NCBI RefSeq assembly: GCF_004803755.1
Contig: NZ_CP032311.1
Span: forward strand, 3,054,501-3,118,500
Length of the DNA stretch: 64,000 bases
From: Pseudomonas sp. DG56-2
Lineage (GTDB): Bacteria; Pseudomonadota; Gammaproteobacteria; Pseudomonadales; Pseudomonadaceae
Direction of reading: 5' to 3'
The translations under genes and the position numbers were made by a program. Each line of letters opens with the position of its first letter. The first letter of the stretch is position 1. Shown here piece after piece: positions 25,840-27,796 of this stretch. The notes under the pieces are model-generated. The model searched no databases and was not told the origin of the DNA. It was given only the letters and a program-made list of their open reading frames with translations.

Positions 25840-26070
25840 CGAGTGAAGGTGTTGCGAAAGGGCTAGCGCGTAGCGCCTTCGGCTTGGCCGAAGTTGCGAA
25901 TCGTAGTGTTGCTTGCAACGCGTAGATCGCAATGCCCTGTAGCGACACCGTAGCGAGGGGACCCGAAGCGCAGCGTAGGGCCCCTGGTGGGGCGAGCCCT
26001 TTGCTTACTTTGGGGCGACTGCCAAAGTAAGGCGCCGTAAGGGCGCAAGGGTGACTCAGCGTCACCCTAG
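25840..26070. repeat. hairpin-rich Pseudomonas intergenic element
   Basis: Non-coding stretch with three strong inverted repeats: CTTCGGC/GCCGAAG (25877-25893), CTTACTTTGG/CCAAAGTAAG (26004-26031, 8-base loop) and AGGGTGAC/GTCACCCT (26048-26068, 5-base loop). The same wording (a 'GGGCCCC..GGTGGGGCGAGCCCTTTGCTTACTTTGG' style text) recurs between genes in many Pseudomonas genomes as I recall, and gives rise to spurious proteins when translated on the minus strand. No transposase is present. Function unknown. Confidence 0.6.
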
Positions 26071-26180
26071 CAAACGGATCAGCACCAGATCGAAGAGCCC
26101 CATCGCAAGCCAAGCCAGAAACCAACACCCACCCAGCCCCCACAATAGTCCCCCCAAATCAAACTAATGCAAATTAGCGA

Positions 26181-26210
26181 TTGAAACCGTAGCAGCGGCT
26201 GAAGTAAGCT
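26181..26210 (+). promoter_or_regulatory. candidate sigma-70 promoter for the DAHP synthase leader
   Basis: TTGAAA at 26181-26186 and TAAGCT at 26205-26210 with an 18-base spacer, 25 bp before the first leader peptide. Just upstream, CTAAT-GCAA-ATTAG (26164-26177) is a small dyad that could be an operator. Spacer and -10 are only fair matches. Confidence 0.35.
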
Positions 26211-26234
26211 CGGAACCATCACCTGGAGAGTCCC

Positions 26235-26369
26235 ATGTCGCCAACCACCCTCAAACACACTCAACACGCAGGTCGCCCATCGCGTCCCGTGCTGACTGTG
26301 GCCGAGTGCGCGACTGCAACTCCCGCTGCATTTTATTTTGGGTATTGGTTTAGCCACAGGCGCCGCTGA
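26235..26369 (+). CDS. aromatic-rich leader peptide 1 (attenuator peptide)
   Basis: Small ORF of 44 codons with GGAGAG five bases before the ATG. Near its end it encodes FYFGYWF (26331-26351): six aromatic codons in seven (Phe, Tyr, Phe, Tyr, Trp, Phe), then SHRRR and a UGA at 26367-26369. It precedes an intrinsic terminator and the gene for the first enzyme of aromatic amino-acid synthesis, so a ribosome-stalling attenuator sensing Phe, Tyr and Trp is the natural reading. The peptide itself should have no other function. Confidence 0.85.
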   Translation: MSPTTLKHTQHAGRPSRPVLTVAECATATPAAFYFGYWFSHRRR

Positions 26370-26404
26370 TACCCACACCGGCGCCCACTTTCAAGGGGCC
26401 GCCG
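26359..26404 (+). promoter_or_regulatory. attenuator switching segments
   Basis: Three segments can pair in exclusive ways. A, GGCGCC at 26359-26364, pairs with GGCGCC inside B (26380-26385). B, CGGCGCCC at 26379-26386, can instead pair with C, GGGGCCGCCG at 26395-26404. C can pair with CGGtCGGCtCCCC (26427-26439 region) within the terminator, forming an antiterminator. A ribosome stalled on the aromatic codons leaves A free (A:B, then C opens the terminator); one reaching the stop codon covers A (B:C, terminator forms). Pairings are read by eye. Confidence 0.6.
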
Positions 26405-26421
26405 AACACGAGAATACTCAA

Positions 26422-26457
26422 CCCCCGGTCGGCTCCCCGACCGGGGGTTTTGTTTTT
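26422..26457 (+). terminator. attenuator terminator before DAHP synthase
   Basis: CCCCCGGTCGG (26422-26432) pairs perfectly with CCGACCGGGGG (26437-26447) around a CTCC loop, and TTTTGTTTTT follows. A strong intrinsic terminator located between leader peptide 1 and the rest of the leader, 240 bp upstream of the structural gene. Confidence 0.92.
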
Positions 26458-26498
26458 CAGGCCCCCGGACAACCGAACAGATAACGAGGATTTACCCC

Positions 26499-26648
26499 AT
26501 GACCTACACCACCTACCACCGTTACCCAAGCTTTGCATGGCGATTTAGCCAATCCCGTTCGGGCCAGCCTGCCGCCTCCGATCGGTCCTGCACAGGTGGC
26601 GCCATCACACCGAATTCCAATCCGGCTCTTTGTCGAACACCTCGATAG
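26499..26648 (+). CDS. aromatic-rich leader peptide 2
   Basis: Second small ORF, 49 codons, with GAGGA eight bases before the ATG. It begins MTYTTYHRYPSFAWRF: seven aromatic residues (four Tyr... three Tyr, two Phe, one Trp plus His) within the first 16 codons, then a Ser/Pro/Arg-rich tail and UAG at 26646-26648. Unlike peptide 1 the aromatic cluster is at the start, and no U-run terminator follows; instead the stop codon lies at the base of a hairpin next to the RBS of the DAHP synthase gene. Translation is inferred from the RBS, the composition and the position only. Confidence 0.6.
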   Translation: MTYTTYHRYPSFAWRFSQSRSGQPAASDRSCTGGAITPNSNPALCRTPR

Positions 26649-26683
26649 GGCCGACAACGCGGGCTTGAACCCGCCGTCTGCCC
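26648..26683 (+). promoter_or_regulatory. hairpin adjoining the DAHP synthase RBS
   Basis: Three stacked helices: GGGC (26648-26651) with GCCC (26680-26683), GAC (26653-26655) with GTC (26676-26678), GCGGG (26659-26663) with CCCGC (26670-26674). The SD sequence AGGGA starts one base later (26684). A ribosome ending translation of leader peptide 2 at 26646-26648 would sit on this hairpin, so translational coupling is possible. Confidence 0.55.
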
Positions 26684-26698
26684 AGGGAAAAAATCGCC

Positions 26699-27796
26699 AT
26701 GCAATCGTCTTCGCTCGCTCTGCCCCTGACCCAACCTCAAGCTGCCAACTCCGCTGTCAGCCAACGCCTGCCCAGCCCGCACTTGCTCAAGCAGCAAATG
26801 CCGCTCAGTACCGCCCTCGCCCATCAGGTCGATCACCATCGCCAGGCCGTCCGCGCCATTCTCGAAGGCCGTGACCCACGCCTGCTGGTCATTGTCGGCC
26901 CATGCTCTATCCATGACCCGCGCTCAGCCCTGGAATACGCCGACCGTCTCGCTGCCCTCAACGCAGCGGTCAGCGATCAACTGCTGCTGGTCATGCGCGC
27001 CTACGTTGAAAAGCCGCGCACCACTGTTGGCTGGAAAGGACTGACCTACGACCCACACCTGGATGGTAGCGACGACATGCACGCGGGCATCGCACTGTCG
27101 CGTGGGTTGATGCTGGGCATGCTTGAGCGCGGCCTGCCGATTGCCACTGAACTGCTGCAGCCGATGGCGGCCGGCTACTTCGATGACCTGCTTAGCTGGG
27201 CGGCCATCGGCGCGCGTACTACCGAGTCGCAGATTCACCGTGAGATGGTCAGTGGCCTGGCGCTTCCTGTGGGCTTCAAGAACGGCACCGACGGTGGCGT
27301 TGCCATCGCCAGCGACGCAATGCGCAGCGCGGCCCATGCACACCGCCACTTCGGCATGGATACCCAAGGCTACCCGGCGATTATCGAAACCCTGGGCAAC
27401 CCGGACACCCACCTGGTACTTCGCGGTGGTCACCAAGGGCCGAACTACGACCGAGCCAGCGTGGCAGCGGCTCGCCAAGGGCTGATCAAGGCCGGGCTGG
27501 CCCCGCGGATCATGGTCGACTGCAGCCATGCCAACAGCGGCAAGGACCCCTTGCGCCAACCAGCGGTGTTCGACGATGTGTTGCGTCAGCGCCTCGATGG
27601 CGATCGTTCGATTATCGGCATGATGCTCGAAGGGCACTTGTTCGATGGTTGCCAGGCACTGGGCAAAGGAGCGCTTGAGTACGGTGTCTCCATCACCGAT
27701 GGCTGCCTGGGATGGGACGCCACACAAGCGCTGTTGCGTCAGGGTGCGGCATCTCTGCGCAACATTTCCCAGGAAAAATCGGCGCTAATCCGGTAG
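26699..27796 (+). CDS. 3-deoxy-7-phosphoheptulonate (DAHP) synthase, class I
   Basis: Enzyme of 365 residues condensing phosphoenolpyruvate and erythrose 4-phosphate, the first step of the shikimate pathway. Class I (AroFGH type) motifs: LLVIVGPCSIHDP near residue 62, RAYVEKPRTTVGWKGL near residue 99, IGARTTESQIHREM, VGFKNGTDGG, LRGGHQGPNYD and DCSHANSGK (metal and substrate residues). The N-terminal extension of about 40 residues is where allosteric aromatic binding occurs in this class; which amino acid inhibits it cannot be read here. Expression appears governed by the long leader upstream with two aromatic-rich peptides and a terminator. Confidence 0.93.
   Translation: MQSSSLALPLTQPQAANSAVSQRLPSPHLLKQQMPLSTALAHQVDHHRQAVRAILEGRDPRLLVIVGPCSIHDPRSALEYADRLAALNAAVSDQLLLVMRAYVEKPRTTVGWKGLTYDPHLDGSDDMHAGIALSRGLMLGMLERGLPIATELLQPMAAGYFDDLLSWAAIGARTTESQIHREMVSGLALPVGFKNGTDGGVAIASDAMRSAAHAHRHFGMDTQGYPAIIETLGNPDTHLVLRGGHQGPNYDRASVAAARQGLIKAGLAPRIMVDCSHANSGKDPLRQPAVFDDVLRQRLDGDRSIIGMMLEGHLFDGCQALGKGALEYGVSITDGCLGWDATQALLRQGAASLRNISQEKSALIR

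Follow-up and report, generated by a model that had tools for sequence, protein, structure and literature searches.

How is an entry enzyme common to all three aromatic amino acids controlled? The question is raised by a 64 kb stretch of Pseudomonas sp. DG56-2 (NZ_CP032311.1), the whole of which is called the window below, where two short aromatic-rich open reading frames (ORFs), leader 1 and leader 2, lie in series in front of a gene for type I 3-deoxy-7-phosphoheptulonate (DAHP) synthase. A first-pass annotation of this DNA had described the region as a two-peptide aromatic attenuator, and had given the second peptide no explanation. We consider it fairly probable that 26235-26705 is a two-stage attenuator of DAHP synthase, in which the two leaders would sense the supply of charged Phe-, Tyr- and Trp-tRNA and act on it, leader 1 probably through transcription and leader 2 probably through translation. 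The new part is leader 2 with its pseudoknot, which is the more unusual half of the system. All coordinates are those of the window and refer to the plus strand unless stated, and L-numbers denote loci of the comparison set. The first half of the leader and the gene are made up as follows.

26235..26369, plus strand: ORF of leader peptide 1, MSPTTLKHTQHAGRPSRPVLTVAECATATPAAFYFGYWFSHRRR and stop codon (ORF reading, conservation).
26327..26447, plus strand: full-length covariance-model match to Rfam RF00627, 'Pseudomonas sRNA P15' (sRNA, small RNA), 112 bits against a gathering score of 70, read here as the leader-1 attenuator.
26331..26351, plus strand: putative regulatory codons of leader 1, TTT TAT TTT GGG TAT TGG TTT (Phe Tyr Phe Gly Tyr Trp Phe; sequence, conservation).
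26359..26364, plus strand: segment 2, GGCGCC, the predicted partner of segment 3 when a ribosome stalls upstream (fold; covariation of the equivalent helix).
26379..26386, plus strand: segment 3, CGGCGCCC, predicted to pair with segment 2 or with 26395-26404 (fold, alignment).
26395..26404, plus strand: segment 3', GGGGCCGCCG, which, if free, is predicted to pair with the terminator 5' arm and apex as an antiterminator (fold; conserved).
26420..26449, plus strand: intrinsic terminator, a stem-loop of 13 pairs followed by the T run TTGTTTTT (terminator scan).
26699..27796, plus strand: type I DAHP synthase gene (profile matches).

Leader 1 runs from an ATG at 26235 to the stop codon at 26367-26369, and its final codons read FYFGYWF-SHRRR-stop. 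On re-reading, the aromatic codons at 26331-26351, the three pairing segments and the other features named in the first-pass annotation were all found where it had placed them, with one correction: FYFGYWF is not the end of the peptide, as SHRRR comes between this run and the stop. The terminator, whose C run begins 53 bases past the stop codon, has a stem of 13 pairs (11 in the first-pass annotation). The leader folds at -64.1 kcal/mol compared to -40.2 kcal/mol for shuffles (z -6.25). A weak P15 match on the minus strand at 26422-26518 (25.5 bits, under the gathering score) we put down to the palindromic terminator.

Searches for P15 were positive in 34 of the 36 genomes covered within the genus, that of the window among them, and in none of 21 other genomes of the order. 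From the 34 positive genomes 30 loci were fetched, and in all 30 the DAHP synthase gene lies downstream of P15 on the same strand. A search with the DAHP synthase protein gave 80 further named loci, from Pseudomonas, Stutzerimonas, Halopseudomonas, Halomonas, Chromohalobacter, Salinicola, Cobetia and others, bringing the total to 110; since these 80 were retrieved with the protein itself, the presence of the gene there is a given. The 110 loci are partly non-independent (the leaders of L024 and L063 are identical, as are those of L028 and L077). The aromatic codon cluster of leader 1 is kept in 30/30 P15 loci and in 41/41 loci displayed in a further comparison. By pattern, 98 of the 105 leader-2 loci (see below) have Tyr-Trp codons together with a terminator, and the other seven are Halomonad-type loci, each with an aromatic ORF. 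Among 52 further Halomonad-type loci, 49 carry the Tyr-Trp-Phe pattern, even though the rest of the leader-1 peptide differs there; it was not found in L118, L170 and L180. Leader 1, a terminator and the DAHP synthase gene thus co-occur across Pseudomonas and Halomonadaceae. Database relatives of leader 1 (query from L001) are unnamed or hypothetical proteins, save for one transporter label in one source.

The helix between segments 2 and 3 (2:3) covaries. In an alignment of 43 rows, which we chose from the 75 near-distinct of 80 distinct loci, 89.0% of 344 cells are paired compared to 83.0% in shuffles, and the covariation score is 0.123 compared to 0.029, neither value being reached in 500 shuffles. 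In Halomonads, where a sequence pattern served to choose the arms and 40 of 50 loci could be read (10 were dropped), eight distinct arm pairs are 100% paired, against a shuffle maximum of 98.4% (0/1000). The comparison with leaders of the orthologous gene that the first-pass annotation had called for thus turned up compensating changes in the 2:3 stem, on the pairing and covariation measures, in both Pseudomonas-type and Halomonad loci, together with conserved aromatic codons. Neither of the two comparative outcomes that it had named as refuting was seen, and its interpretation of leader 1 is supported at the level of sequence. The stalled-state pairings that it had proposed were also reproduced: with a ribosome on the first Phe codons and polymerase just beyond the terminator 5' arm, the window folds such that 26359-26365 pairs with 26379-26385, and 26397-26404 with 26426-26434 of the terminator, while in the ribosome-free fold 26379-26386 pairs with the 26395-26404 segment.

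From these helices we infer ribosome stalling, an antiterminator and a kinetic switch. A ribosome stalled on FYFGYWF would leave 26359-26364 free to pair with 26379-26386, and the released 26395-26404 would pair with the terminator 5' arm and apex, so that transcription continues. A ribosome that arrives at the stop codon at 26367 would cover 26359-26364; 26379-26386 would then pair with 26395-26404, and the terminator would form.

What, then, lies between the terminator and the gene, which starts 250 bases further on? The second half of the leader contains these features.

26499..26648, plus strand: ORF of leader peptide 2, MTYTTYHRYPSFAWRFSQSRSGQPAASDRSCTGGAITPNSNPALCRTPR and stop codon (ORF reading, conservation).
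26533..26546, plus strand: predicted base stem, 5' arm, TTGCATGGCGATTT (pairing computation).
26538..26546, plus strand: leader-2 core, TGG CGA TTT (Trp Arg Phe, W-R-F; in 105/110 loci and also used as search string).
26555..26562, plus strand: pseudoknot helix 1, 5' arm, CCGTTCGG (covariation).
26571..26576, plus strand: pseudoknot helix 2, 5' arm, GCCGCC (covariation).
26578..26585, plus strand: pseudoknot helix 1, 3' arm, CCGATCGG, with one U-U mismatch in this species (covariation).
26595..26600, plus strand: pseudoknot helix 2, 3' arm, GGTGGC (covariation).
26648..26683, plus strand: hairpin between the leader-2 stop codon and the Shine-Dalgarno site of DAHP synthase, GCGGG...CCCGC within GGGC...GCCC (folds).
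26691..26704, plus strand: predicted base stem, 3' arm, AAATCGCCATGCAA, which holds the DAHP synthase start codon (pairing computation).

Leader 2 is aromatic-rich and located past the terminator. Its core string TGGCGATTT, coding for Trp Arg Phe, was located no further than about 520 bases ahead of the gene in 105/110 loci, an invariance that is partly circular because this 9-mer was the search string; in L095 the core reads TGGCGCTTT, with one changed base. That the title of the first-pass annotation was right to count two peptides is borne out by the reading frame: an in-frame ATG precedes W-R-F in 105/105 loci, 103 of which also have a Shine-Dalgarno-like sequence, and among 50 distinct leaders of the same length substitutions in the first 15 codons show a third-position excess (1730 versus 1017 and 908 at the other positions). 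A Tyr-rich cluster precedes the core, for example YYRYDSFSAWRF in Pseudomonas and GYYGYWRF in Halomonads. Pattern searches with the core matched 29 of 390 genomes of the order and 61 of 121 genomes of one Halomonad family, some by chance; judging from contigs common to named records (e.g. L096, L167), this family is presumably Halomonadaceae. The 57 further leader-2 loci fetched through these searches all have DAHP synthase downstream in the sense direction (57/57). A class-wide model search of 229 genomes gave the window's own copy alone among the at most 22 candidates scored per genome, which is weak evidence for absence elsewhere. Database relatives of leader 2 (query from L010) are unnamed or hypothetical proteins.

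Two sequence details of leader 2 are recorded here in their own right. The Arg codon of the core is CGA in the 105 exact 9-mer loci and in the 57 loci whose search pattern did not fix that base, compared to 12 CGA among 201 CGN codons in six genes of the window; in groups that lack the base stem, this constancy is not explained by the base stem. Near the end of leader 2, CGAACAC (26634-26640 in the window) is present in 85/104 loci, 82 of them in the leader-2 frame. A frameshift at W-R-F into the gene was considered and rejected, since the gene occupies all three frames relative to the leader (42, 36 and 26 of 104) and the -1 frame mostly stops at once.

Where leader 2 is of the long form (P. 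putida and P. fluorescens groups, Halomonads), W-R-F is followed by two crossing helices with the order and lengths of an H-type pseudoknot: 8 pairs, an 8-base loop, 6 pairs, 1 base and a loop of about 9 bases. Its first base sits 8 bases past the Phe codon. In a first alignment of 57 rows, which had been selected with a string similar to the last arm, 92.7% of the pseudoknot cells are paired. A second alignment holds 74 distinct rows, 52 from pattern searches and 22 of 28 loci hand-picked earlier (six were repeats), and leaves out 12 chance matches and L121, which has an insertion; the pattern fixed five bases of the first arm, and left columns 18, 21 and 22 and the second and third arms free. 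Here 96.4% of 1036 cells are paired and 6 of the 14 pairs are changed on both sides, compared to only 21-51% of cells paired in slide controls; the +3 slide has 37 cells changed on both sides compared to 36 for the true pseudoknot, yet just 51% of its cells are paired. Taken alone, helix 1 reaches a covariation score that none of 500 shuffles attained, and its count of pairs changed on both sides is not above shuffles (101/500); helix 2 alone was matched by 1/500 shuffles on both measures. The most variable pair, columns 18:48, occurs as six types (CG, GU, GC, UG, UA and AU) and joins two codon third positions, and is therefore not explained by protein conservation. The centre of helix 1 is a single mismatch in most Pseudomonas, including the window, and a pair in Halomonads. 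In the P. citronellolis and Stutzerimonas groups, whose leader 2 is short, no pseudoknot was seen. Instead of forming one pseudoknot, the two helices may be alternative structures.

In the window, the W-R-F arm and the DAHP synthase start can form 14 contiguous pairs. This base stem is the strongest at 263 start-site-like places in the 64 kb, its own included (the next, at -22.2 kcal/mol, is 2 kcal/mol weaker), and 11 of 10,662 36-base stretches of the window pair as strongly. The predicted probability that the start codon is unpaired is 0.00 in the free RNA, 0.46 with a ribosome on W-R-F and 0.00 with a ribosome at the leader-2 stop. Near relatives (9-11 pairs in L026, L031, L032 and L038), the P. 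citronellolis group and one Stutzerimonas locus out of four also have helices of 8-11 pairs, with other sequences; the lengths are 8 pairs in L068, L069, L071-L073 and L079, and 11 in L084, while the helices of L082 and L100 lie upstream of the start region proper. Over all, contiguous helices of at least 8 pairs are found in 15/104 loci (14%), compared to about 8% of shuffles. The hairpin at 26648-26683 is present in both consensus folds, one of long-type and one of short-type rows, and the distance from the leader-2 stop to the gene start is nearly constant at 42-49 bases (10th-90th percentile of 91 Pseudomonadaceae-type loci). With the lineage limits described below weighed in, base stem, hairpin and spacing lead us to regard translational attenuation, with moderate confidence, as the most likely role of leader 2. 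On the read-through mRNA, fast passage of ribosomes through leader 2 would let the W-R-F codons pair with the gene start (14 bp here), and this pairing, formed around the H-type pseudoknot, would close the start codon of DAHP synthase; should a ribosome stall on the Phe and Trp codons of leader 2, it would cover the arm, and the start would stay open.

A number of results weigh against this two-stage scheme. For the first stage, the P15 match is absent from two of the 36 genus genomes, and leader 1 shows no third-position excess among its substitutions, so that its case is based on the conserved frame and codons. Of the three-segment switch in the first-pass annotation, the 2:3 helix held up on pairing and covariation score, and not on pairs changed on both sides (287/500) or pair types (290/500), which are not above shuffles; the 3:3' helix is conserved and never varies among pairs, and the antiterminator pairing, likewise conserved, is without covariation in Pseudomonas-type rows, both offering too little variation to test. 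In Halomonads the antiterminator covariation reached only 99/1000. Once the complete terminator is present it wins in all states tried, which means that the switch must be kinetic, like known attenuators. In thermodynamic simulation of 98 loci, stalled and unstalled states were not separated, and the predicted occupancy of the terminator 5' arm was higher in the stalled state than at the stop in just 36/98, which we think is partly because the model allows free pairing of the RNA behind the ribosome. Separately, the terminator apex of L037 (P. putida GM4FR) has changed to CGGCCC and matches the locus's own upstream segment GGGCCG over six bases, possibly a compensating change in the antiterminator.

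For the second stage, the Shine-Dalgarno site in the window stays unopened in the model that frees the start codon (0.31, 0.32 and 0.28), and in the same model stalling changes little in other groups. No pairing excess over shuffles was found in 47 fluorescens-group loci (mean z -0.11) or in 11 Halomonad-type loci (z -0.49), nor was there one in three near relatives, L021, L036 and L037 (z 0.00), and swapping partners between species across 104 loci left the pairing unweakened (mean rank 0.50). A universal base stem was therefore rejected on the swapping rank and on the z values near zero in the fluorescens and Halomonad groups, and, given the weak excess of long helices together with the swap and shuffle results, we treat the base stem as lineage-specific, which is why the translational step is worded as an inference. 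In RNAalifold consensus folds with ribosome masks (63 long-type rows, with L070 and L076 dropped, and 19 short-type rows, with six dropped), stalling left the Shine-Dalgarno site no more open than before (long type 0.54 to 0.54, short type 0.57 to 0.41), which speaks against a simple sequestration model in these groups. Finally, the Salinicola loci L086, L087, L090 and L094 keep leader 1 and then the gene, and leader 2 was not found in them; terminators were displayed for two of these four.

These lineage limits would suit a rival scheme in which leader 1, a classical transcription attenuator, is the sole regulator. Leader 2 and its pseudoknot would then sense no amino acids and serve as a translated spacer, either retaining ribosomes on the mRNA or coupling translation into the gene. 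The nearly constant spacing between leader 2 and the gene in Pseudomonadaceae-type loci fits this too, as do three Halomonad loci in which 7 bases separate the stop of leader 2 from the gene, an arrangement that resembles coupling. Yet a mere spacer needs no RNA fold selected at silent sites, and the Tyr/Phe/Trp cluster before W-R-F is kept even where other leader-2 residues differ, so that we regard this scheme as rather unlikely. The three loci (Halomonas L106, L107 and L109) merit a remark of their own: the last codons of leader 2 overlap the likely Shine-Dalgarno site there, and coupling or occlusion may act in place of a base stem. Leader 2 might instead work through Rho-dependent termination or mRNA decay, with a stalled ribosome or the pseudoknot hiding or exposing a Rho-loading stretch between pseudoknot and stop. 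By eye this stretch looks C- and A-rich in the displayed fluorescens-type loci, and the terminator scan gave no plus-strand site from 26450 to the gene in the window; but a stalled ribosome usually exposes downstream RNA and does not hide it, the wrong sign for relief under starvation, and we judge such a mechanism improbable. Very improbable in our view is a nascent-chain sensor, in which the leader-2 peptide would arrest in the exit tunnel in response to a free aromatic compound, as exemplified by TnaC. A Ser or Thr follows W-R-F in nearly all displayed leader-2 peptides, but the residues just upstream of W-R-F vary in identity and spacing between families, and the core was found as a single DNA string, which points to a constraint at the RNA level.

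There remains the label of P15 itself. By model match it is the same RNA as the leader-1 attenuator, although Rfam files it, by type ('Gene') and by name, as an sRNA gene, and the available text of PMC2375449 lists it among the P. aeruginosa sRNAs detected by Livny et al. If P15 were a trans-acting sRNA, the leader peptide would be incidental. This is hard to square with its sense orientation before the same gene in 30/30 loci, with the conserved open frame and aromatic codons inside it and with its alternative attenuator helices; besides, a terminated attenuator would equally be detected as a small RNA, and the listing in PMC2375449, as far as its available text goes, fits a terminated leader. 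We give a trans-acting role very little credence. The available part of PMC2527527 suggests a riboswitch from synteny, and neither there nor in the available parts of the other literature covered is a leader peptide described for P15. The protein of the DAHP synthase gene that it precedes matches NF009395 (518 bits), TIGR00034 aroFGH (436.8 bits) and PF00793 in profile searches. The P. aeruginosa counterpart of the gene, to judge by gene order, is presumably PA1750. In the main text, as available, of a P. aeruginosa 3'-end study (PMC8297930) neither P15 nor PA1750 is mentioned, and a term search of the available text of PMC3349714, PMC3272035 and PMC8395346 found no mention of P15. The literature search, which covered sources outside subscription papers, brought up no recognisable description of this leader.

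The two-stage reading can be set beside known designs. Leader 1 is most likely a transcription attenuator of the classical leader-peptide type in which Phe, Tyr and Trp codons jointly serve for stalling. The enterobacterial trpL and pheL leaders are transcription attenuators of this kind for trp and phe, and leader 1 shares with them an end-product-rich leader peptide and, by prediction, mutually exclusive antiterminator and terminator before a biosynthetic gene. Unlike trpL and pheL, it holds Phe, Tyr and Trp codons in one sensor, matching the first enzyme common to all three, and a second aromatic leader follows the terminator. Two regulatory ORFs in one leader, mgtM and mgtP, are also found in mgtCBR, where the signals are different and the operon is not one of amino acid biosynthesis. 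Before aroF of Acholeplasma, the uORFC-13-1 motif consists, in the available text of PMC8632094, of an upstream ORF with Phe codon(s) and a terminator, and thus resembles the present arrangement before a DAHP synthase gene, but it names Phe only, has a single ORF and belongs to an unrelated lineage.

By analogy, the nearest known design for leader 2 is the actinobacterial LEU element before leuA, for which the available text of PMC1262725 describes leader codons, a pseudoknot and a base stem between codons and the Shine-Dalgarno box. Leader 2 in the window appears to have counterparts of all three. It differs in belonging to Proteobacteria, in preceding DAHP synthase, in its aromatic codons, in following a transcription attenuator and in its base stem, which covers the start codon and is limited to some lineages; since it stands before DAHP synthase in Gammaproteobacteria and not before leuA in Actinobacteria, it may work like LEU without being a member. 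The LEU authors cite, in the same available text, experiments in which leucine codon changes were without effect, a warning for our reading of leader 2 (PMC1262725). A bolder version of the two-stage reading, which we put forward tentatively and rate at somewhat less than an even chance, is that the same amino acid pool is read twice on one mRNA, by a tri-aromatic transcription attenuator and then by a tri-aromatic pseudoknot translational attenuator, and that an entry enzyme of the shikimate pathway is made only if both stall checkpoints agree; the pseudoknot leader would be a separately arisen proteobacterial counterpart of LEU, and 'sRNA P15' the discarded first half.

Within the genome the arrangement is confined to this locus. 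P15, the leader-2 model and a leader-1 12-mer have a single match each, and of the two type I DAHP synthase genes only the copy in the window has tandem leaders: the 400 bases ahead of the other (L182, G000:C1:1904898-1905938, minus strand, 543 bits) contain no comparable aromatic ORF. Further upstream, between an acyl-CoA dehydrogenase-like gene and the leader, lies a dispersed repeat (25935-26075) with 43 matches genome-wide, five of which (own included) are 95-100% identical over 132-141 bases.

If the two-stage reading is true, it would explain the control of an entry enzyme on which Phe, Tyr and Trp synthesis all depend. A single leader would sense the codons of the three jointly, where textbook leaders sense one amino acid each, and the long-catalogued 'sRNA' P15 would become the terminated half of an attenuator. 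Lineages with the pseudoknot, lineages without it, and Salinicola without leader 2 would then provide a natural comparison set for serial attenuators.

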